DNA of 64,000 nucleotides. It comes from Actinokineospora auranticolor (lineage in GTDB: Bacteria; Actinomycetota; Actinomycetes; Mycobacteriales; Pseudonocardiaceae). The stretch lies in contig NZ_PTIX01000001.1 in assembly GCF_002934265.1 (NCBI RefSeq), positions 620,001 to 684,000 of the forward strand, given 5' to 3'. A program made the translations under genes and the position numbers. Under the pieces are notes generated by a model. That model had not been told where the DNA came from, made no database searches, and saw only the letters and a list, made by a program, of their open reading frames with translations. Position 1 is the first letter of the stretch. Each line of letters opens with the position of its first letter. This document shows, piece after piece, positions 28,788 to 41,761 of the stretch.

Positions 28788-30028
28788 GTGGGGATGATGG
28801 TGTTCAGGCGCGTGAGCGCGGTTCTCGTCGTGGCGGTCGGGCTCGTGGTCGCGGCGGCGGCGGGGTTGACCGGGGCGGTGGTCGTCGCGGCGGTGACCGA
28901 CCGGCTGTGGCTGATCGCGGCCGCGGGTTTCGCGGCGTTCGCGGTGGTGATGGCCGCCGCCGGGTGGGCCGGGTTCGCGGTCGGCGGGGCGGGGCGGGCG
29001 TGGCGCGACGGGAGCGTGCTGGCCGGGGTCGTCACGGTCGCGGTGACGGTGGTCTGCGCCGTGCTGCTCAACGCGCCCGCGGTGCCGCCCGACGCGGCCG
29101 TGCCCGGGGACGTCCGGTTCTGGCAGCTGCCCACCGGGTCGCGCCTCGCCTACGTGTACGAGCCCGCGCAGGGGACCAAGCGCGCGAACCCGTGGTGCTG
29201 CTGCACGGCGGGCCCGGCACGCCCGCCGAGGGGATCTCGGCCACGGGGCGGGCGCTGGCCGCGGCGGGCTTCGACGTCTACTCCTACGACCAGCTCGGCT
29301 CCGGCCGCTCGACCCGCCTCGACGACCCGTCCGGCTACACCGTCGCCCGGCACGTCGCCGACCTGGAGGCCGTCCGCGACCGGCTCGGCGCCGGGAAGCT
29401 CGTGCTGGTCGGGCAGTCGTGGGGCGGGTCGCTGGCCGCCCAGTACCTCGCGGCGCACCCGGACCGCGTGGCGCGCGCGGTGTTCGCGTCACCGGGCGAG
29501 CTGTGGCCGCGCGCGTGGCGGGACGGGGTGGGCGAGCCCAGGCTCAACCGGGCGCAGCGGGACCGCCGGGACGACCTGGTGACCTCGCCGCGGTTGCTGC
29601 TGGCCTCGGCGCTGCTGTCGGTCAACCCCCGGGCCGCGCACGACTTCCTCGGCGACGCGGAGGCCGACCGGCGGATGCGGGAGATCGGCGTGGCGATCAA
29701 GGACGCGACCGGCTGCCCCGGCGCGCCACCGGCGGCCGTGCACGACAACCCGCCCGGCTTCTACGCCAACCAGCGGACCGTCGCCGACTTCGACGACGTC
29801 CCCGACCCGCGCCCGGCGCTGCGCGCGGTCCGGGTGCCCGCGCTGGTGCTGCGCGGGGAGTGCGACTACATCAAGGAAGCGGTCACGGCCGAGTACACCG
29901 CTGTCCTCGCCGGCGCCACGCTGGTCACCGTTCCCGGCGCGGGCCACAACATCGCCGCGGCCCGCCCGGACGCCCACCGCGACCTGATCACCGCCTTCCT
30001 CCTGGACGAACCGCTTCCCCAGCCGTGA
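28788..30028 (+). pseudogene. Membrane-anchored alpha/beta hydrolase interrupted by a one-base deletion
   Basis: The frame beginning at GTG28788 (ATG28794) encodes three to four membrane helices and runs up to YEPAQGTKRA. At 29183-29186 the coding sense moves to another frame (EPVVLLHGGPGTPAEG), which continues with GQSWGGSLA (nucleophile Ser) and VPGAGHNIAAARPDAH (catalytic His) to a stop at 30028. Adding one base near 29184 would restore a single protein of about 410 residues. So the gene is either a recent single-base-deletion pseudogene or a sequence error in a GCGCGCG run. The catalytic half is otherwise intact. Its 3' end overlaps the convergent FkbM gene by 41 bases. Confidence 0.82.
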
Positions 30029-30746
30029 ACAGGTAGTTGCGGTGACCGTCGACCAGCCCCGGTACCGGCTGCCAGGCGCCGCGCCAGACCCGCGGTCGGT
30101 AGCCGAACTCGCCGAGCCACGCGAGGAACTCCGGTGGGGCGAGGCCGTAGCGGGCCAGGTGGCGGGGCTCGACCTCCAGCAGCAACGCCGGGCGGTCGCG
30201 GCCCAGCAGGTCCGCGCCGCCGCGCAGGACCGACCACTCGGAACCCTCGGTGTCCGCCTTGACGAAGTGGACCCGCGGCAGGCCGAGCCGGGCGGCGAAG
30301 TCGTCGAGGCGCTCGGTCGGGGTGCGCACCTCGACCTGCGCGTCGAACTCCCGGTTGGCGCCCAGCGCGGCGGTGCCGCCGGTGAGGAAGGCCCGGCCGG
30401 TGACGAACCGGGGACCGCGCAGGGGCACGCTCAGGTGGGACCGACCGGTCACCTCGGCCAGCGCCAGGGCGTGCGCCCGGACCGCGGGGCCGCGCCGCAG
30501 CGCCAGCAGCTCGGAAACCGCGCGGTGGGCGAAGACCAGCGGTTCGATGCTGTGCACCTGACCGCCCGGACCGACGAGGCGGGCCAGCTCCGCGGTGTAG
30601 ATCCCCGCTCCCGCGCCGATGTCGAGGCACACGTCACCCGGTCGCACCAGCGCCGAGAGGCCCAGCACCTCGCTCTCCACCCACGGCGTCAGCCGGGCCA
30701 GCGCCCGGGTCGTCAGGGAAACCGCTTGGTCCACAAGGGAAGTCAC
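29988..30746 (-). CDS. FkbM-family SAM-dependent methyltransferase
   Basis: A 252-residue methyltransferase. Motif I is VCLDIGAGAGIYT (about residues 40-52), and a FkbM-type core follows: VHFVKADTEGSEWSVLRG (about 165-182), with the E-S/T-E region preserved as D-T-E-G. FkbM enzymes O-methylate sugars or secondary metabolites. GTG30746 gives the usual start just before the first helix. It is monocistronic and convergent with the broken hydrolase. No biosynthetic cluster adjoins it; acceptor unknown. Confidence 0.88.
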   Translation of the reverse strand: MTSLVDQAVSLTTRALARLTPWVESEVLGLSALVRPGDVCLDIGAGAGIYTAELARLVGPGGQVHSIEPLVFAHRAVSELLALRRGPAVRAHALALAEVTGRSHLSVPLRGPRFVTGRAFLTGGTAALGANREFDAQVEVRTPTERLDDFAARLGLPRVHFVKADTEGSEWSVLRGGADLLGRDRPALLLEVEPRHLARYGLAPPEFLAWLGEFGYRPRVWRGAWQPVPGLVDGHRNYLFTAGEAVRPGGRR

Positions 30747-30908
30747 GGCACCGACGCTAGGCGCCGGTGGGCGCCGTGCCGTCCCGCGCGGGAGCCCGGC
30801 CCCGGCCCCCGCCAAGGGGTGCCCGACGGGTGGTGTGGCTCCCAAGAGTGATGATCACGAACCCCATCGGGGGACCGCACCCGGCGCGCGGCGCCCTACC
30901 GTGGGGGT

Positions 30909-32021
30909 ATGCACACGCGGAACGGACAGCGGGCGACCGTGGTGGCGGCGACCGCGGTGTTCGTGGCGGCCGCCGCCTCGGCCGGTGGGGTGATCTCGGG
31001 GCGGTTGTGGGACTGGGCCGTGTGGCCGGTCGCGGTGGCGCTCGGCGCGGCCGTCGCGGGGCCGCTGCCGTGGTGGCGGACAAGACCCTTCCCGGCGTGG
31101 CTGGTGGCCTGCGCCGCGACGGTGGCGACGCGGCTGCTGGAGGTCTGGCTCGCGGTCCCGCCCGGCCTGCTGACCACCGCCGCGGTCTTCGCGCTGACCC
31201 CGCTGCTGGTCGGCGTCGGCATGGCCCTGCGCCGCCCCCGCGCGCTGGCGGTCGCGGCGATCACGGTGGTGGTCATGGCGTTCACCCAGCCCGGCGCCGA
31301 CTTCGGCGTCGTGCTGCTCGCCGCCGTGACCGCGACCCTGCTGGGCATGGCCACCGCCGCGCGGAGCCGGGCGGAGGCCGAACTGGACCGGGAACGGCTG
31401 CGCCAGGAGACCCTCGCCGCCCGGGCCCGGATCGCCCGGGAACTGCACGACGTCGTGGCGCACCACATGTCGCTCGTCGCCGTCCGCGCGGAAACCGCGC
31501 CGTACCGGCTCGCCGAGGTGCCCGACGCGACCGCCGCCGAGTTCGCCGACATCGCCGCCGCGTCCCGGTCCGCGCTGGCCGAGATGCGGGTGCTGCTCGG
31601 CGTCCTGCGCGCCGACACCGAGGCCGACCGCGCGCCCCAGCCCACCGTCGCCGACCTGCCCGACCTGGTCGACCGCGCCCGCGCGTTGGGCGCCGAGGTC
31701 CACCTGGCGCTCGACGAGCCGAGTCGCGGGCTGTCCGGTGTCCGCGCGCTCGCCGTGCACCGGATCGCGCAGGAGGCGTTGAGCAACGCCGTCGCGCACG
31801 CGCCCGGGCAGGCCGTCGACCTCTCGATCACCACGGCGGGCGGGGTGGTGGTCGTCGAGTCGCGCAACCGGCTCACCAGCACCGCGCACGGCACCGGGCT
31901 CGGGGTGCTCGGGATGCGGGAACGGGCCGAACTCCTCGGCGGCACCCTGGTGGTGGACCGGACCGGCGACGAGTTCCTGGTCCGCGCGGAGATCCCCGTC
32001 CCCCGCGCGGAGACCGCGTGA
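30909..32021 (+). CDS. NarL-type membrane sensor histidine kinase (HisKA_3)
   Basis: A 370-residue kinase. The first 150 residues contain about five membrane helices and almost no sensor loop. A coiled segment (RAEAELDRERLRQETLAAR) leads to the HisKA_3 box IARELHDVVAHHMS, whose His is the phosphorylation site. The ATPase part has an N-box (QEALSNAVAHAP) and GLGVLGMRERAELLGG. It is followed by its response regulator with a 4-base GTGA overlap. Intramembrane sensing of envelope or antibiotic stress is usual for this architecture; the signal is unknown. Confidence 0.93.
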   Translation: MHTRNGQRATVVAATAVFVAAAASAGGVISGRLWDWAVWPVAVALGAAVAGPLPWWRTRPFPAWLVACAATVATRLLEVWLAVPPGLLTTAAVFALTPLLVGVGMALRRPRALAVAAITVVVMAFTQPGADFGVVLLAAVTATLLGMATAARSRAEAELDRERLRQETLAARARIARELHDVVAHHMSLVAVRAETAPYRLAEVPDATAAEFADIAAASRSALAEMRVLLGVLRADTEADRAPQPTVADLPDLVDRARALGAEVHLALDEPSRGLSGVRALAVHRIAQEALSNAVAHAPGQAVDLSITTAGGVVVVESRNRLTSTAHGTGLGVLGMRERAELLGGTLVVDRTGDEFLVRAEIPVPRAETA

Positions 32022-32728
32022 TCACCGTGGTCGTGGTGGACGACCAACCGGTGGTGCGCGAGGGGTTCGCCGCGCTGCTGGACCGCCAGGACGACATCTG
32101 CGTCGCGGGCACCGCGGGCGACGGCGAACACGCCTTGGCGCTGTGCGGGCGGGAACGGCCGGACGTGGTGCTCATGGATGTCCGGATGCCCGTCCTCGAC
32201 GGGGTCGCCGCGACCGGCAGGCTGGTGGCGGACCACCCGGACACCCGGGTCCTGATGCTCACCACCTTCGACATCGACGAGTACGTCTACGCGGCGCTGC
32301 GCGCGGGCGCGAGCGGCTTCCTGCTCAAGGACGCGACCGCGGCCGACCTCGTCGCCGCCGTCCGCGCGGTCGCCTCGGGCGGCGCACTCCTGGCCCCGAC
32401 CGTCACCCGCCGCCTCGTCGAGCGGTTCGTGGCGCAGGACCCGCTGCCACCGGACAGCACCGCGATATCCCGGCTGACACCCCGCGAACGGGAAGTCCTC
32501 ACCCTGGTGGCGCGTGGGCTGTCGAACGCGGAGGTGGCCCGCGCGCTGCACCTGGCCGAGGAGACGATCAAGACCCACGTCGGCCGGGTCCTCGGCAAGC
32601 TGGGGCTGCGGGACCGCGTGCAGGCCGTGGTCTTCGCCTACGAGAACGGCGTCGTCACGCCGCGGGCGGGCGGCTACGGTCGACCGCGTGCCCCGACTCG
32701 CCATGGTGAACCTCAAAGCCCGGGATGA
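32018..32728 (+). CDS. NarL/FixJ-family response regulator
   Basis: A 236-residue regulator. The receiver domain has DDQ at the N-terminus, phospho-acceptor Asp in DVVLMDVRMP (about residue 54), Thr in MLTTF and Lys in FLLKD. A LuxR-type DNA-binding domain occupies residues 150-210 (LTPREREVLTLVARGLSNAEVA, then ETIKTHVGRVLGKLGL). The start GTG32018 overlaps the kinase stop. The last 20 residues overlap the next gene, which begins inside this frame, implying co-transcription. Confidence 0.94.
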   Translation: MITVVVVDDQPVVREGFAALLDRQDDICVAGTAGDGEHALALCGRERPDVVLMDVRMPVLDGVAATGRLVADHPDTRVLMLTTFDIDEYVYAALRAGASGFLLKDATAADLVAAVRAVASGGALLAPTVTRRLVERFVAQDPLPPDSTAISRLTPREREVLTLVARGLSNAEVARALHLAEETIKTHVGRVLGKLGLRDRVQAVVFAYENGVVTPRAGGYGRPRAPTRHGEPQSPG

Positions 32729-33401
32729 CGCGGCGCTCGGCCGGTTCTGGGCCGCGGTGCTCGACTGGGTCGTGTTCCACGAGGGGCCCGGTTCGACCGC
32801 GCTCGGACCGGCGGGCTTCGCCTGGCCGGACCCGGACGCCCTCTGCCTCGACGTCGTCGCGGTCCCGGACCCCGAGGCGGTGCGCGGCCGCGTGCGCCTC
32901 GACCTCGCCGCCGCCTCCGCGACCCACCAGGCGGAGTTGGTGGCGCGCCTGGTGGCGTCGGGGGCGAAGCGCGTCGGCGGTGGTGACGAGCCGTGGACCA
33001 CCCTGACCGACCCGGAGGGCAACGTCTTCCGCGTGCGGCGGGAGACCGACCGGGACACCGGGCCGATCGCCGCGGTGGTGGTCGGCTGCGCGGATCCCCG
33101 TGCCATGGCCCGGTTCTGGGGCACGGCGATGGCGTGGACCACGCACGAGGCGCGCGACGACCGCGCGAGACTGCGCGCGGCCACGGGGATCGGCCCCTAC
33201 CTGGAGTTCGTCCCCGACCCGCTCGTCACCCGGAACCGCTTCCACCTCGACCTCACCCCGAGTCCGCGCGCGGACCACCCGGCCGAAGTGGCCCGGCTGC
33301 GGACCCTCGGCGCCGCCGACGCCGACATCGGTCAGGGCGCGGTGCCGTGGGCCGTCCTGGCGGACCCGGAGGGCAACCGGTTCTGCGTCCTCACCCGCTA
33401 G
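32688..33401 (+). CDS. Two-domain VOC (glyoxalase-fold) protein
   Basis: A 237-residue protein of two tandem VOC-like halves. Each starts with a D-P-x-A/A-L-x-R-F-W element ([26 protein letters not shown]) and ends with W-x-x-L-x-D-P-E-G-N. The two DPEGN blocks hold the usual last-strand acidic residue. GTG32688 overlaps the preceding regulator gene by 41 bases; ATG32703 is an alternative start. Such proteins are common in actinobacteria, and their reaction is generally not known. It ends convergent with the P450 gene (4-base overlap). Confidence 0.88.
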
Positions 33402-34576
33402 CGGGTGAGGCGCACCGGGAGGCTCGTCAGGCCGCGGTTGCGGAACGACGGCAGCCACCGGGGTTCGAAGTCGGGGGTGGCGGGTGCGCAGCCGCGCGCC
33501 AGCAGGGCCGCGATCGCGATGCCCGCCTCCACCTGGCTCAGCCGCGAGCCGAAGCTGCGGTGCGGGCCGTGCCCGTAGCTCAGGTGGGGGTTGGGGTCGC
33601 GCCGGAGGTCGAGGGTGTTCGGGTCCGCGAAGACCGCCGGGTCGCGGTTCGCCGCCGCGATGCCCAGCAGCACGGTGTCGCCCGCCGGGATCACGGTTCC
33701 CGCGATCTCCACGTCCGTCCGCGGGAACCGGCGGATGGCGAACTGGAGCGGCTGGTCGTAGCGGGTCAGCTCCTCGACCGCCGACGGCAGCACATCCGGG
33801 TGGGCACGCAGGTCCGCCAGCTGCTCCGGCGCGGCGAACAGCGCCCACACGCCGTTGCCGATGAGGTTGACCAGGTTCTCGTAGCCCGCCCACAGCCCCA
33901 GGAACGCCAGCGACACCAACTCGGCCTCGCTGAGCCGGTCCTCCTCGTCGCGCACCGCGATCAGGGCGGACAGCAGGTCGTCGGCCGGCGCCGCGCGCTT
34001 GGCCGCGACCAGGTCGACCAGGAACCCGTACATGGCGGCCACCGCGTCCCGGGCGGCCGTCGGCGGCTGGTCCGGGCGCGGGGTGAGCAGCACGCTCGTC
34101 CACGAGCGGAACCGGTCCCGGTCGGCGGCGGGTACGCCGAGCAGGTCGCCGATCACCCGCACCGGCAGCGGCGCGGCGAACGCGGCGATCAGGTCGACGG
34201 GCTCGCCGACCGGTACCGCGTCGAGCAGTTCGGTCGCGGCCGCCTCGATCGCCGGTGCCAGCGCCGCCACCCGCTTCGGGGTGAACGCGCCCGCGATCAG
34301 GGCGCGCAGGCGGGTGTGGTCCGGCGGGTCGAGGTTGAGCAGGTTGGCGTCGAGCGCGGGCGGCAGCGCGAAGCCCCGGTAGCCCGCGCCCGCGTTGGCC
34401 CGGTCCAGGGACAGCCGCGGATCGGCGAGCCCGGCCCGCACGTCGGCGTACCCGGTCACCACCCACGCCTTGGCACCGTCCGGTGTGGACACGTGGTGCG
34501 CGCCGCCGTCGGCGCGCAGGCGCGCGTAGGTGGGGTGCGGGTCGGCGAAGAACTCGGCGTCGAAAAGTTCGCTCAT
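33398..34576 (-). CDS. Cytochrome P450 homologue with Ser at the heme-ligand Cys position
   Basis: A 392-residue soluble bacterial P450-like protein. The I-helix GLWAGYEN (about residue 236), the ExxR element in [10 protein letters not shown] (about 285) and the N-terminal DPPDHTRLR block are in place. The heme-binding loop reads [13 protein letters not shown] where F-G-x-G-x-H-x-C-x-G is expected, so the proximal Cys is Ser341 (codon AGC, one base from TGC). The Thr after AGxE is also changed to Asn. Everything else is well kept and there is no stop or frameshift. It is coupled by ATGA to the membrane-protein gene. Function could be a Ser-ligated heme enzyme, or a non-heme helper like EryCII/DesVIII. 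Confidence 0.9.
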
Positions 34577-35727
34577 CGGTTCCCCACCTTAGCGCGGCCG
34601 TCCGCGGTGAAGGCCCGCGATACCCGGACCAGCCAGTCGGTGCCGGTGTCGTGCGGCGGCGCCTCGGATTCCGGGCGCGTGACCGCGTCGGGGCCGTCGC
34701 GCAGCGCGGCGGCGATGGCGGCGGCCTCGACCGACGCCCGAAGGTCCGCGCCCGCCAACCCGGCTTCCCGCCCCCGCGCCGTCGCCGCCTCCACCACCGA
34801 GGGGTCCTGGTACGGCTGGAGCCACCGGATGCCGTCGCGGATCTCCACGACCCGCCGGTGCAGGCGGAAGTCCAGGTCCCGCACCGCGCGTCGCGGCGCC
34901 TGCCGGTCGAGCACGAGGTCCGGGTTCGCCTCGCTCAACGCCGCCCACAGCGGGTAGAGGTCGTTGTGGCGCCGGTAATCGCGCATCCGCACGCGCAGGG
35001 CGCTCACCTGCGGCCCCCACCCCGGCACGCTCCACCCGATCAACGTGAGGATGCCGCCCAACCCGGCACCCAACCGCGCCACGAACTCCCACCGCTGCGG
35101 GTCCAACCCCAGCGGCGCGGCGATGACGTCCGCGTAGCGGGCCGCCGAGTACAGCAGGCCACCGGTGGCCCCGATGGCCGCCATGCGCAGCCCACGGCGC
35201 AGCCAGGGGCCTTCCAGGGCCCGCGCGTGCCGCACGCACCGCGACACCAGCACCGCCTCGGTCACCGCGAACGCGGTCACGTAGAGCATCAGGTAGACCG
35301 AATACAGCCCTTTACCGGCAAACCGGATCGCGGCCGTCGTCGTGTCTTCTTCTGTGAGGTCGGCCAAGGCGAACAGCACGGCCATCGCCACTACTACGGC
35401 GCCGAAACCCACCACCTGCCGACGCACCATGGGACGGGCGTGTTCGGCGTCGTGCGCCCAGAACGTCAACGCGGCCAACTGCGTCGCGGCCACCCCGATC
35501 ACGCTGCCCTGCGACAGCAGCAGCGACAGGTTGGGCACACCGGCCGACCGGTCGACCAGCGCCCACACGCGCGGGTCGCTGATGGTGAACGTCAACCCCA
35601 TGAACAGGAAGAACAACGCCACCGCGACCGCGGCCGGACCGCGACCCGGGCGGGACAGCGCGGGCAGCTTGAACAGCAGGCTGACCCACGCCACCCCCGC
35701 GCACAGCGGGTAGAGGACCGCGTTCAC
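34573..35727 (-). CDS. Seven-helix membrane protein of the MAB_1171c/DUF6545 type
   Basis: A 384-residue protein. About seven membrane segments occupy residues 1-245; a soluble C-terminal region carries [19 protein letters not shown] and [18 protein letters not shown], typical of the MAB_1171c family of putative transporters. It lies between an ImmA/IrrE-type peptidase gene (6 bases upstream) and the Ser-P450 gene (4-base overlap). The XRE/ImmA/MAB_1171c order recurs in actinomycetes as far as I know. The biochemical role is not established; signal transduction across the membrane is an inference. Confidence 0.85.
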
Positions 35728-35733
35728 CGGCCG

Positions 35734-36252
35734 CTACACCGCTTCGGGGTGCGTCGAGTGGTTGAGCGAGCCCGCGATCCGCGCCGCCACGTCGTCACCC
35801 GGCGGGGGAGCGCCGCGCAGCACCTCGCCGAGCAGGTACGCCAGCACCTCGGCCTGCTGCTCCTGCTCGTCGCTGTAGGTGGTGCGGCCCAGCATGTCGC
35901 GCACCAGCGCCGGGTCGATGTCCGGGAAGAACACCGCCGCCGTGTCCGCGTCGAGGTGGCCGCCGCCGCGGTGGCAGCAGATCATGTGCCCGATCTCGTG
36001 CAGGATGATGTGCTCCTGGTGCGCCGCCGGGGCGGCCTCGTCGAAGAAGATCCAGTCCGCGTCGCCGGTGGCGACCCAGATGCCGCACGGCTGCGACGCG
36101 AGCATCGCCACCGGGACCACGTGCAGCGGCCGCCCGCGCGCCCGCGCCAGGTGCGCGCACAGCCCGGCCAGGTCGGTGTGCGGTGGCAGTTCGAGCCCGG
36201 CCAGCAGGGCGGCGCAGTCGCGGCGCACCCGGCGCAGTCCCCGACGCGGCAC
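35734..36252 (-). CDS. ImmA/IrrE-type zinc metallopeptidase
   Basis: A 172-residue protein with the gluzincin-like motif HEIGH at about residues 84-88 in IILHEIGHMICCH, as in ImmA and IrrE. Such peptidases cleave a cognate XRE repressor to relieve repression after a signal. Upstream residues (VPVAMLASQPCGIWVATGDADWIFFDE) match the usual domain entry. GTG36252 starts five bases after the XRE regulator stop, so the pair is co-translated and most likely a repressor/antirepressor switch. The C-terminal 60 residues are acidic and may carry the sensor. Confidence 0.9.
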   Translation of the reverse strand: MPRRGLRRVRRDCAALLAGLELPPHTDLAGLCAHLARARGRPLHVVPVAMLASQPCGIWVATGDADWIFFDEAAPAAHQEHIILHEIGHMICCHRGGGHLDADTAAVFFPDIDPALVRDMLGRTTYSDEQEQQAEVLAYLLGEVLRGAPPPGDDVAARIAGSLNHSTHPEAV

Positions 36253-36257
36253 GGCTT

Positions 36258-36746
36258 TCAGTCCTCGGGCCGGTCGGTGTCGGTGTCTGTGACGGGCGGC
36301 AGGCCGCGCTGCCTGCGGGCCTGGTCGAGCAGGGCCGTGATCAGGTCCAGGTTCGACCGCGGCAGGCCGACCGCGCGCTGCGCGATGCCGACGACGCCGC
36401 GCTCGCGCAGCATCGCCAGCTGCTCGAGCTGCGCGCGCACCCGCTCGCCGTGGCCGTCCTCGTCGTCGAAGAAGTAGCTCGGGTTGACCCCGAAGAACCG
36501 CGCCAGCGCCACCAGCAGGTCCATCGACGGGCTCGTCCGGCGGCCGGTGCGCAGCATGGACAGGTACGGGCCGCTGACCCGCAGGTCCGGGTTCGCCTTC
36601 TTGACCTCGGCGGCCACCTCGGCGTTGGACCACTGCCTGCCGCGCGGGAGGCTCACCCGGAACAGCCGGTCCAGCCGGGCGCCCAGCGAGGTCCCGGGCC
36701 GCTCGGCGGATGTCCCCGCCGCACCACCGGTTTCGGGATCCCCCAC
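36258..36746 (-). CDS. XRE-family DNA-binding regulator
   Basis: A 162-residue regulator. The lambda-repressor-like helix-turn-helix lies at residues 30-95: WSNAEVAAEVKKANPDLRVSGPYLSMLRTGRR, followed by PSMDLLVALARFFGVNPSYFF. GTG36746 follows an AAAGGGTGG ribosome site; an in-frame start further up (36845) would place the operator palindrome inside the gene and is less likely. It heads a minus-strand operon with the ImmA-like peptidase, membrane protein and P450. The C-terminal third is rich in charged residues and could be the cleavage target. Confidence 0.85.
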   Translation of the reverse strand: MGDPETGGAAGTSAERPGTSLGARLDRLFRVSLPRGRQWSNAEVAAEVKKANPDLRVSGPYLSMLRTGRRTSPSMDLLVALARFFGVNPSYFFDDEDGHGERVRAQLEQLAMLRERGVVGIAQRAVGLPRSNLDLITALLDQARRQRGLPPVTDTDTDRPED

Positions 36747-36794
36747 GGTTGGCCACCCTTTCGTGACTGTGACTCCCCCACAAGTCTCGCAGGG

Positions 36795-36862
36795 TAACTG
36801 TGAGTTGACAACGGGCCCGCACCGCTGCGTACCATGGCCACGCATGGGTTAACTGCCAGTTA
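36795..36862. promoter_or_regulatory. Two operator-like palindromes upstream of the XRE cassette
   Basis: TAACTG-C-CAGTTA at 36850-36862 is a perfect 13-base palindrome. TAACTG-T-GAGTTG at 36795-36807 is a weaker copy, centre to centre about 55 bases. They lie 49-117 bases before GTG36746 and are the best candidates for the XRE regulator's own binding sites. Confidence 0.55.
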
Positions 36863-36914
36863 GTGGTGGTGACCGGACTCGACGCGCGGCGCTCGGCCGC
36901 GGCTGATCGGGGAG

Positions 36915-36968
36915 AAAAAAAGGAGTTCCGCGCTCAACCGGCCTGGGGGTTACCGGGAGCGCGGAACT
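36915..36968 (-). terminator. Strong intrinsic terminator facing the minus strand
   Basis: A perfect 12-bp stem (36924-36935 with 36957-36968) closes a 21-base loop that itself contains an AACC/GGTT mini-stem. On the minus strand it is followed by CC and seven U. It sits 200 bases beyond the diguanylate cyclase stop and just before the XRE promoter region. The remaining 36863-37169 interval holds no supported gene. Confidence 0.75.
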
Positions 36969-37169
36969 TCATCAAGCGTAGTACGAACTCGGCGATTGTG
37001 CACACCGACCCCCCGAATTCGTGTCCTCGGCGTGTCCTCGCGCCGGTCAGAGCCGGTAATCGAGGGTCGCTCACGAGCGCCGGGACCGGTCGCGCCCCGG
37101 GGTGAGGGGTCCGGGGGCGCGGCCGATCCCGGGTCGGATCGTCGGATGACCGGGCGTCGCCGCCGCGGG

Positions 37170-38603
37170 TCAGGGGTGGGACTGCTCCCGGTCCTGCGGC
37201 CCCGGTTGGGTGGGGACGTGCGGGCCCGCGGCGCCCACCACGGCGACCTGGTTGCGGCCGTTCTGCTTGGCGACGTCGAGCGCCTGGTCCGCCAGCTCCT
37301 GCAGGTCCGCCAGGGTCGTGGCGTGCTGCGGCGCGCAGGCCACGCCGATCGAGATCGTCACCCGCGGCACCTCGCGTCCCAAGTGGACGGACGGGCCGTC
37401 CGCCGGGGTGGTGATCGTCGTGCCCAGGGCCTCGACACCCGCCCGGATCCGCTCGGCGATCTTCAGCGTCTCGGCCGGGTGGGTGTCGGGCAGCACCGCG
37501 GTCAGCTCCTCGCCGCCCCACCGGGCCACGAGGTCACCCGCCCGGGTGTTCTGCCGCAGCGCGCGGGCCACGGCCTGCAGCACCTGGTCACCGCCGAAGT
37601 GGCCGAGGCGGTCGTTCCACCGCTTGAAGTGGTCGAGGTCGAGCATCAGCACGCCGGTCGGCCTGCCGTTGAGGCGGTCCAGCCGGATCGCGGCGGTGGC
37701 CAGGGGCAGGAAGCCGCGGCGGTTGCTCAACCCCGTCAACGGGTCGGTCGTGGCGTCGGCCTCGAGCCGGTCGCGGTCGGCCGTGCGCATCGCCAGGCTG
37801 CCCAGCAGGCGGGTTTCCATGACCGCCACCGCCAGCACGCCGAACAGCGCCACCGGGGTGATGGCGGCGGCCCCCACGGCCCCGAGGCCGACGAGCAGGG
37901 TGTGCAGCAGCAGGAGGTTGTCCTCCCGGCTGCCCCAGGTCTCGCCCAACCGCCAGGTGCGGAAGCGGACCGCGCGGTACACGCCGACGATCGTCCCCTC
38001 CACCAGGAAGTACACCAGGGCCGCCAGCACGAACAGCGCGGTGATCCGCAGCCCGCCCGCGTCGGGTTCGGTCAACCCGTCGTAGGGGCGGCCGGAGCCC
38101 ACCATGAGACCCCGCAGCAGGCTCACGAACGCCACCGACAGCAGCACCGCGGCGGTGTTGCTCACCCACAGGGTCAACGGCCGCATCGCGATGCGCCAGC
38201 GGCGCACCCGCACCATGACGACCAGCGCCCCGGCCAGCATCGGCGGCAGCAGCAGGGCCGAGCTGAAGAACCAGATCGAGGCCTGGTCGATGAACTCGAC
38301 GGTGCCGCGCTGCCTGCGCATGCTCCGGCGGCGCTTCTCGCTCGCCGCGGTGACCTCGGTGTAGGCCAGCGCGCACGCGCACAGCATCGCGAACAGACCC
38401 CAGTCCGCCGTCGTGATCCCCGGCGCCCGCGTCACGGCGTAGGCCAGCCCGACCACGCCGACCAGGTTGGTGATCAGCAGCACGACGCCCGTCGGCACGC
38501 CGAACTGCCAGAGGCCCCACCGGGTCGGGTGCAGTGCCGACCGCGCGCGCTCGGGCCCGCGCACCCCCGCGAAGGGGCACTCCGGGCCGTCGTTTCCCCC
38601 CAT
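37170..38603 (-). CDS. Membrane-bound diguanylate cyclase (GGDEF)
   Basis: A 477-residue enzyme that makes cyclic di-GMP from two GTP. The first 290 residues contain seven or more membrane helices in a MASE-like arrangement without a recognisable extracytoplasmic sensor. The catalytic domain begins at DATTDPLTGLSNRRGF; the active loop is WGGEEL, a standard variant of GGDEF. An inhibitory I-site R-x-x-D (RAGD) lies five residues before it, so feedback inhibition is expected. ATG38603 has AGGGGAGG upstream. An 18-bp palindrome lies about 250 bases before the start. Confidence 0.92.
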   Translation of the reverse strand: MGGNDGPECPFAGVRGPERARSALHPTRWGLWQFGVPTGVVLLITNLVGVVGLAYAVTRAPGITTADWGLFAMLCACALAYTEVTAASEKRRRSMRRQRGTVEFIDQASIWFFSSALLLPPMLAGALVVMVRVRRWRIAMRPLTLWVSNTAAVLLSVAFVSLLRGLMVGSGRPYDGLTEPDAGGLRITALFVLAALVYFLVEGTIVGVYRAVRFRTWRLGETWGSREDNLLLLHTLLVGLGAVGAAAITPVALFGVLAVAVMETRLLGSLAMRTADRDRLEADATTDPLTGLSNRRGFLPLATAAIRLDRLNGRPTGVLMLDLDHFKRWNDRLGHFGGDQVLQAVARALRQNTRAGDLVARWGGEELTAVLPDTHPAETLKIAERIRAGVEALGTTITTPADGPSVHLGREVPRVTISIGVACAPQHATTLADLQELADQALDVAKQNGRNQVAVVGAAGPHVPTQPGPQDREQSHP

Positions 38604-39280
38604 ACCGCATGCCTCCCCTGAGCCGCCCACCCGTGCCGGGGTGGGCGCGCGCATCACGCGAGGCTGACCTGGCGCGGGCGGGCTCGGGTCGGCGCGACTG
38701 CGAACGCGCCCCGGAGCGACCGGACTCCTGGGCGGGTGCACGGGCGCGGCGCGGGCGGCTCGTCGGTCGTTCCCCTGGACCTGACGAGCCACCGGGGTGC
38801 GCCCCCGGCTCCCGGCGTCGCGCGATCGTCCCCCCGCGTCCCCCCGCTTGAGTTTCCTCGCGAGGAAACCATAGGGCAGTTCGCATCCCGGACAACCGAA
38901 TTGGGCTGAACCACTCATTCGGCGGAGCGGGTGATCGCGACCGGGCCAGCGAGGTGAGGCCGATAGGGGGACGCGCCGTCACACTCGCGGCGTAGCGCGC
39001 GGCGGCCGTTCGCGGGAGGGGGGCCACCCTGAGCTGTCGGGTGAACGCGAACAGCGCCCGCGTCGGGCGTGGGGCACCCGGTCCGCCGGTAGGGCCGTTC
39101 GACCCTCCCGTTTCCCGTTGTGGACCGGACCATTTCCTCTTGTGTCCACTGTTGACGGTGTGCGGTTCTCGTTGGCCCGCAGGGGATCGGGGCCGAAACG
39201 CGCTGCCGCCGTTCAGCGGAGCGTCACCCCCCGGTACGCGGATAACATCGAGAATCCCCCGATTCCCCAGGAGGACGGGC
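38604..39280. other. Long intergenic region between divergent cyclase and P450 genes
   Basis: About 680 bases without a supported gene. It contains a perfect palindrome at 38852-38869 (listed separately) and, on the minus strand just before it, a possible promoter TTGTCC-16-TATGGT. Towards the P450 gene AGGAGG at 39269-39274 is the ribosome site. Frames in this stretch are Arg/Pro-rich shadows. Confidence 0.5.
38852..38869. promoter_or_regulatory. Perfect 18-bp palindrome upstream of the diguanylate cyclase gene
   Basis: GTTTCCTCGCGAGGAAAC, an uninterrupted palindrome, unusually AT-containing for this genome. It overlaps the inferred -10/+1 area of a minus-strand promoter. Candidate binding site of an unknown dimeric regulator. 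Confidence 0.55.
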
Positions 39281-40510: not shown

Positions 40511-40550
40511 ACCCGGTCACGGGCGCGCAATCCCGTGCCCGTGACCGGGT
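40511..40550 (+). terminator. 14-bp stem-loop after the P450 gene
   Basis: Arms 40511-40524 (ACCCGGTCACGGGC) and 40537-40550 pair perfectly around a 12-base loop, 7 bases after the stop codon and 42 bases before pobA. Confidence 0.75.
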
Positions 40551-40591
40551 CGACGTGGCGGGAACCGGCCCCGGTGTACTTCTATGGGGGA

Positions 40592-41761
40592 ATGCGTACC
40601 CAGGTCGCCATCATCGGGGCGGGCCCCGCCGGTTTGCTGCTGTCCCACCTGCTCGGCGCCGCGGGCGTCGAGTCCGTCGTGCTGGAGACCCGGTCCCAGG
40701 AGTACGTCCTGGCCCGGATCCGCGCGGGCATCCTGGAGGACACGTCGGTCCGGTTGCTGGAGTCGGTCGGCCTGGCCGACCGGCTGCGCCGCGAGTCGAT
40801 GCCGCACCGGGGGATCTACCTGCAGTGGCCGGGGGAGCGCCACCACCTGGACTTCGTCGACCTGGTCGGCCGGGGCATCCACGTCTACGGCCAGACCGAC
40901 CTCACCCGCGATCTCGTCGACGCTCGCGAACGCGCCGGGCAGGCGCTGGTCTACGAGGTCACGGGAACCGCGCCGCACGACATCGACACCGACCGCCCGT
41001 CGGTGACCTATGTCGATCGCGACGGCAACCCCGGGCGCGTCGAGGCCGACGTCGTGGTCGGCTGCGACGGGTCGTTCGGCCCCAGCAGGCAGGCCATCCC
41101 CGAGGACCGGCGGCGGACCTGGGAACGCGCCTACCCGTACGCCTGGCTCGGCGTGCTCGCCGACGTCGCGCCGTCCACCGACGAGCTCATCTACGCCCGC
41201 CACCCCGACGGGTTCGCCATGCACTCCATGCGCTCGGACACCGTCAGCAGGCTCTACCTGCAGGTGCCGCCGGGGGAGGACATCGCGGCGTGGTCCGACG
41301 ACCGGATCTGGACGGCGCTCGGCACCCGCCTCGACGTCGACGGCTGGACGCTCACCCCGGGCCCGATCACCGAGAAGTCCGTGCTGCCCATGCGCGCCGC
41401 CGTCACCGGCCCGATGCGCCACGGCAGGCTGTTCCTGGCGGGCGACGCCGCGCACATCGTGCCGCCGACCGGCGCCAAGGGCCTGAACCTGGCCATCGCC
41501 GACGTGGCCGTGCTCGCCCCCGCGGTGACCGCGCTGCTGCGCGGCGACGAGCGGCTCGCCGCCGAGTACGCCACGACGGCCGCCCGCCGGGTGTGGCGGT
41601 GCCAGCACTTCTCGTGGTGGATGACCACCATGCTGCACACCGGCGACGACCCGTTCGACGAACAGGTCCAGCTCGCCCAACTGCGCTGGGTCGTCGAGAG
41701 CGAAGCGGGCGCGCGGGGCCTGGCCGAGAACTACACCGGGTTGACGTTGGACGGCGCGTAG
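40592..41761 (+). CDS. pobA: 4-Hydroxybenzoate 3-monooxygenase
   Basis: A 389-residue FAD-dependent hydroxylase that converts 4-hydroxybenzoate to protocatechuate with NAD(P)H and O2. The N-terminal dinucleotide fold is VAIIGAGPAGLLL (residues 5-17), the middle DG motif VVVGCDGSFGPSR (about 150), and the GD motif RLFLAGDAAHIVPPTGAKGLNLAI (about 283). The substrate-side segments (RIRAGILE, YTGLTL near the end) match PobA. ATG40592 begins right at the first strand. It runs toward, and functionally feeds, the protocatechuate dioxygenase genes at 42-44 kb. Confidence 0.92.
   Translation: MRTQVAIIGAGPAGLLLSHLLGAAGVESVVLETRSQEYVLARIRAGILEDTSVRLLESVGLADRLRRESMPHRGIYLQWPGERHHLDFVDLVGRGIHVYGQTDLTRDLVDARERAGQALVYEVTGTAPHDIDTDRPSVTYVDRDGNPGRVEADVVVGCDGSFGPSRQAIPEDRRRTWERAYPYAWLGVLADVAPSTDELIYARHPDGFAMHSMRSDTVSRLYLQVPPGEDIAAWSDDRIWTALGTRLDVDGWTLTPGPITEKSVLPMRAAVTGPMRHGRLFLAGDAAHIVPPTGAKGLNLAIADVAVLAPAVTALLRGDERLAAEYATTAARRVWRCQHFSWWMTTMLHTGDDPFDEQVQLAQLRWVVESEAGARGLAENYTGLTLDGA

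Follow-up and report, generated by a model that had tools for sequence, protein, structure and literature searches.

The P411 enzymes are P450s in which the cysteine that ligates the heme has been changed to serine in the laboratory. These engineered proteins have a higher reduction potential and a weaker push for O-O cleavage, and in Cys-to-Ser mutants the activation of O2 is crippled by the loss of the thiolate. A second group of proteins, the activators of the EryCII/DesVIII type, have the P450 fold without the cysteine, as is the case for the protein described here. One P411 enzyme is named in PMC10755850.

Among the structures in the PDB, the sequence closest to our protein is 9CJG (released 2025-03-12), whose title describes it as P450-G9 from Actinokineospora terrae, a non-canonical, serine-ligated cytochrome P450, ligand-free and in closed conformation. 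By this title, natural serine ligation in this group of orthologues is already on record, and the novelty of the present observation is reduced because the orthologue had already been solved. The closest structure of a Cys P450 is that of CYP107X1 from Streptomyces avermitilis (PDB 7WEX), with 54-55% identity and the same AGYEN motif in the I helix, which differs by its normal Cys loop, HYCLGAPLAR. In the open-access literature, among the matches listed, no title dealt with P450-G9 or its structure 9CJG, or with serine ligation in natural P450s; subscription papers are mostly outside that collection, so one may well exist. The locus reported here lies in a window of 64,000 nucleotides of Actinokineospora auranticolor, by which we mean the whole stretch of DNA that was analysed. 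It very probably shares with the P411 enzymes the serine as heme ligand, but in them the serine is a laboratory mutation, while in the window the serine and the remodelled loop around it are natural and conserved.

Serine at the heme-ligand position

The open reading frame of the P450 is intact, with its ATG at 34576 and a stop codon that ends at 33398. The features of the gene are the following.

33398..34576, minus strand: Ser-type cytochrome P450 of 392 aa, at the downstream end of the row XRE-ImmA-MAB_1171c-P450; best PDB match 9CJG
33554..33556, minus strand: codon AGC of Ser341, at the heme-thiolate Cys position; Ser in 9/9 orthologues
33533..33577, minus strand: remodelled heme loop, residues 334-348, with Y334, R340, S341, F342, S344, R345, S347 and Q348 specific to the Ser clade
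33875..33877, minus strand: I-helix Asn234 replacing Thr, also in close Cys relatives
33761..33772, minus strand: ExxR motif E269-R272, intact

The Pfam p450 profile (PF00067) matched the protein with 51.1 bits, over a cut-off of 22.8. It has the P450 fold, the ExxR motif and 54-55% identity to CYP107X1, which places it in CYP107 under the naming rule that we take to apply (a CYP107 match above 40% identity). The cysteine heme-thiolate ligand that defines a canonical monooxygenase is replaced by Ser341. The preliminary description of this DNA had located this serine (AGC, 33556-33554) where catalytic P450s have cysteine, and a second reading of the sequence agrees.

Across 390 aligned residues there was no difference between 9CJG and the orthologue of A. 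terrae. The window P450 is orthologous to it, with 75-76% identity and a position in the same clade (SH-aLRT 100); a 10-residue stretch is identical in both and the gene row is the same. An AlphaFold2 model of the window P450 (mean pLDDT 92.4) was superimposable on 9CJG with a Z of 53.7 and an rmsd of 1.6 over 381 residues, at 75% identity. Considering that the window protein is an orthologue of a structure titled as serine-ligated, Ser341 is very probably the proximal ligand of its heme. It is also likely, with somewhat less assurance, that the protein as a whole is a natural, functional, serine-ligated P450 and not a standard monooxygenase. By analogy with the chemistry of the P411 enzymes, an oxygen ligand would make it a poor canonical O2-activating monooxygenase.

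The search of 100 related genomes gave 8 Ser P450 orthologues besides that of the window, with 72-78% identity to it. The hosts, window included, are 8 Actinokineospora genomes and Haloechinothrix halophila; A. fastidiosa, A. terrae, A. globicatena, A. enzanensis and A. inagensis are among them. The ligand position is serine in all nine, encoded by AGC in 6 and by AGT in 3, and the gene is present in 8 of the 16 Actinokineospora genomes. The top score band contained 10 Ser rows and 1 gap since it includes cut copies of the same genes, the genomes being 9; in the next band (360-500 bits) cysteine was found in 51 of 51 distinct sequences. Over 186 distinct P450 sequences the ligand column had 173 Cys, 9 Ser (the orthologues themselves) and 4 gaps, and among 80 named loci kept from 290 relatives there were 6 Ser, 73 Cys and 1 gap (L067).

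At the level of the family, 42 of 390 genomes matched with an E value no higher than 1e-112: the 9 Ser orthologues and 33 with 52-59% identity. The residue was read in 30 of these 33 (G163, G411 and G421 were left out) and it was always cysteine. In G288, which is among the 30, the matched stretch contains a stop. Class-wide and order-wide searches gave no further Ser member. The P450 also matched 42 plasmid records, every one with less than 60% identity. A plasmid-borne copy was considered and rejected; the plasmid of Streptomyces sp. NBC_01298, the one of the 42 in which the residue was read, encodes a Cys P450; in that record none of the 9 annotated features is named MAB_1171c.

Remodelling of the heme loop

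A tree of 64 rows was built by a quick method with the heme-loop columns left out. The nine Ser rows formed one clade (SH-aLRT 100), and the Cys/Ser difference needs one change on the tree, which by itself does not give the direction. Since all the other rows have cysteine, we infer that cysteine is the older state.

Nineteen residues were invariant in the Ser clade and yet present in less than 10% of the 55 Cys rows. Taking the heme loop as residues 333-351, 8 of the 19 fall in it, at positions 334, 340, 341, 342, 344, 345, 347 and 348. Repeating the count with eight control sets drawn from the Cys rows (some nested within others) gave 0 for six sets and 1 for the other two, and when Haloechinothrix was omitted from the Ser clade 8 of 21 clade-specific residues were located in the loop. 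Three residues after the ligand there is alanine in 55/55 Cys rows and serine in 9/9 Ser rows. Seven residues after it, arginine in 52/55 Cys rows is replaced by glutamine (Q348) in 9/9 Ser rows. R340 and R345 occur in none of the 55 Cys relatives and, together with the exchange of arginine for Q348, they indicate that the proximal face has changed. In P450cam the equivalent of this arginine is part of the surface for the redox partner; its replacement by glutamine is the reason why the redox partner of the Ser P450 may differ too.

Meanwhile, residues H87, R91, E269, R272, R283, G335, G337 and H339 remained unchanged in 9/9 Ser rows. The pairwise dN/dS of the P450 genes, calculated with our own script from Nei-Gojobori counts, had a median of 0.24 and a range of 0.09-0.43 over 36 pairs, and the medians for the neighbouring genes were 0.30 (MAB_1171c) and 0.37 (ImmA). 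The gene is under purifying selection, and the loop is remodelled as a block, beyond the mere mutation of the ligand. Taking into account this remodelling, the heme-pocket residues that were kept and the dN/dS values, we read the pattern as a probable adaptation to serine rather than decay. The protein would descend from an ordinary Cys P450 by one change of ligand, with the loop around it remodelled as a block, and the serine and the remodelled loop are now fixed in the Actinokineospora/Haloechinothrix clade.

The asparagine of the I helix (AGYEN, N at 234) had been pointed out beforehand alongside the serine. The residue was read correctly, but it does not count as an oddity because, of the 55 Cys rows that lie closest to the clade, 51 share it with the 9/9 Ser rows; in a wider set of 173 Cys sequences this position had 58 Asn and 111 Thr. 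A second, linked peculiarity is thus ruled out, asparagine being ordinary among the close Cys relatives.

The gene row with XRE, ImmA and MAB_1171c

The genes upstream of the P450 are listed below.

34573..35727, minus strand: MAB_1171c-family membrane protein with C-terminal DUF6545, in ATGA overlap with the P450 gene; seven-helix GPCR-like domain in the model
35734..36255, minus strand: putative metallopeptidase of ImmA/IrrE-like type, HEIGH motif in its translation, start codon uncertain; PF06114 with 14.1 bits, cut-off 22
36258..36845, minus strand: XRE-type helix-turn-helix regulator, kept in the gene row; HTH_3 with 25.2 bits, cut-off 23
37170-38918, minus strand: gene for a diguanylate cyclase (GGDEF), lying upstream of XRE

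The order and orientation XRE, ImmA, MAB_1171c, P450 are common to the 9/9 Ser loci. Of the 8 Ser loci outside the window, 5 have a GGDEF gene too within the stretch examined. In the window the start ATG of the P450 (34576-34574) overlaps the stop TGA of MAB_1171c (34575-34573) as ATGA. The preliminary description held that the gene is intact and translationally coupled to its neighbour; both points stand for the window, but tight coupling is not universal among the Ser orthologues. In A. terrae (L113), the species of P450-G9, and in L116 there are about 526 and 382 bp from the end of the MAB_1171c match to the start of the P450 match, distances that were measured between matches, which can stop short of the end of a gene.

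MAB_1171c orthologues (67% identity or more) were found in exactly the 8 of 16 Actinokineospora genomes that have the Ser P450. Of the other 8 genomes, 3 had distant forms only (33-35%) and 5 had none at E 1e-20. Distant MAB_1171c genes of Actinokineospora adjoin an ImmA-like gene in 7 of 8 cases, and within short flanks a P450 was beside none of the 8. The complete row was also found in 4 of 35 Cys loci, and ImmA-MAB_1171c-P450 in 2 more, the neighbours being recognised by their similarity to the proteins of the window, by which distant forms can be missed. The row is therefore not bound to serine, considering that 6 of the 35 Cys loci have the P450 beside ImmA and MAB_1171c. These six Cys P450s (L148, L149, L162, L120, L165 and L056) belong to other actinobacteria; at L022, outside the 35 Cys loci, a MAB_1171c match adjoins a Cys P450.

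The neighbour protein belongs to the MAB_1171c family, since it scored 252.2 bits with NF042915 (cut-off 100). Its model was of moderate confidence (mean pLDDT 79.4, pTM 0.64, from 8 sequences) and showed a seven-helix domain followed by a long helix and then the helical DUF6545 part. Among the best 1000 Foldseek chains that domain came closest to GPCR-like folds, one of them designed (Z 18.4, rmsd 3.7, 210 residues) and others from natural GPCRs (Z 14.7-16.4, 6-13% identity), values to be read against the Z of about 13 that helical bundles reach by their common arrangement alone. According to PMC8707978, the one paper among the matches listed that mentions MAB_1171c, a Mycobacterium abscessus knockout of this gene, like two others, had about half the biofilm mass, and the gene was counted there among transporter genes. 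The likeness of our model to these chains concerns the fold, and it speaks somewhat more for a receptor than for the transporter implied by the family name.

A role in anti-phage defence was considered and rejected: neither the GGDEF protein nor any of the four proteins encoded by the row, five in all, had a PADLOC match. Further along the window there is a second P450 gene (39284-40504, plus strand) with a normal Cys loop, GGGPHHCLGAALAR, and it is followed by the gene of a FAD_binding_3 protein (40535-41761).

Possible functions of the serine P450

Among the matches listed in the open-access literature there was no paper on the biological role of a Ser P450. Considering the gene neighbourhood and the MAB_1171c model of moderate confidence, it is possible, as a tentative proposal, that the P450 works on, or detects, a small molecule within an XRE-ImmA-MAB_1171c signalling operon. 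The seven-helix membrane protein MAB_1171c would serve as receptor, ImmA as protease and XRE as the repressor removed by ImmA, and the P450 would make, remove or sense the ligand of this receptor-protease-repressor operon. A more specific version assigns to a naturally evolved alkoxide-heme P450 the synthesis, breakdown or sensing of the ligand of a GPCR-like MAB_1171c, which would control the ImmA-type protease and the XRE repressor, the serine and the loop having been selected for a chemistry beyond that of thiolate P450s; stated in such detail, we consider it rather speculative. The proposal leaves room for a catalytic role on some substrate unrelated to signalling.

The P450 could instead be a heme-based sensor, which would bind a gas or a small molecule and signal to the receptor, protease and repressor genes with no catalysis. 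Its fixed linkage to XRE, ImmA and MAB_1171c, and the exact co-occurrence with the MAB_1171c orthologues in the 16 Actinokineospora genomes, are consistent with this role; yet Cys P450s hold the same place elsewhere, and we regard a sensor as doubtful.

Ordinary P450 monooxygenation despite the serine is improbable. The standard fold and pocket would allow it, and so would the nearest Cys structure, CYP107X1 at 54-55% identity, but the proximal face has changed (Q348 for the arginine of 52/55 Cys rows, R340 and R345 in 0/55) and the loss of the thiolate would be expected to impair O2 activation as it does in Cys-to-Ser mutants.

Still less probable, and indeed very unlikely, is that the protein is a heme-free, P450-derived helper of the EryCII/DesVIII type which stabilises a partner, perhaps MAB_1171c, ImmA or XRE instead of a glycosyltransferase. 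The cysteine is lost as in those helpers, the gene is tightly coupled to another one, and the profile TIGR04515 (P450-derived glycosyltransferase activator), which we take to be the family of the EryCII-type helpers, does match. However, the score of 156 bits was far under the cut-off of 343, outside the family, and the window P450 differs from EryCII/DesVIII in keeping the heme-pocket residues: H87, R91, R283, H339 and ExxR are unchanged in 9/9 orthologues. None of the 8 window proteins that were scanned (chosen from 29988-38918, the P450 included) matched a glycosyltransferase family. The choice between a serine-ligated heme and a heme-free helper, left open in the preliminary description, is largely settled in favour of the former by the title of 9CJG.

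One base (TGC to AGC) would suffice for an error in the sequencing or for a recent inactivation of the gene, but both are negligible alternatives in view of the serine in 9 different genomes, the open frames and the purifying selection; lone mutation and decay are ruled out by the same nine orthologues, as the earlier argument against simple decay had held.

It is surprising that a natural P450 has serine chemistry, but this much is on record. What is added beyond 9CJG is the evolutionary origin, the remodelling of the loop and the fixed operon with a membrane protein modelled as a GPCR-like seven-helix fold. The conserved natural clade in nine genomes means that evolution took the same step as the laboratory design of the P411 enzymes, and the consistent changes R340, F342, S344, R345, S347 and Q348 show what accompanied the serine. 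Thanks to the origin, the remodelled loop and the gene row, the function is accessible to testing, and the fixed gene row is a direct route to the biological role of the Ser P450.
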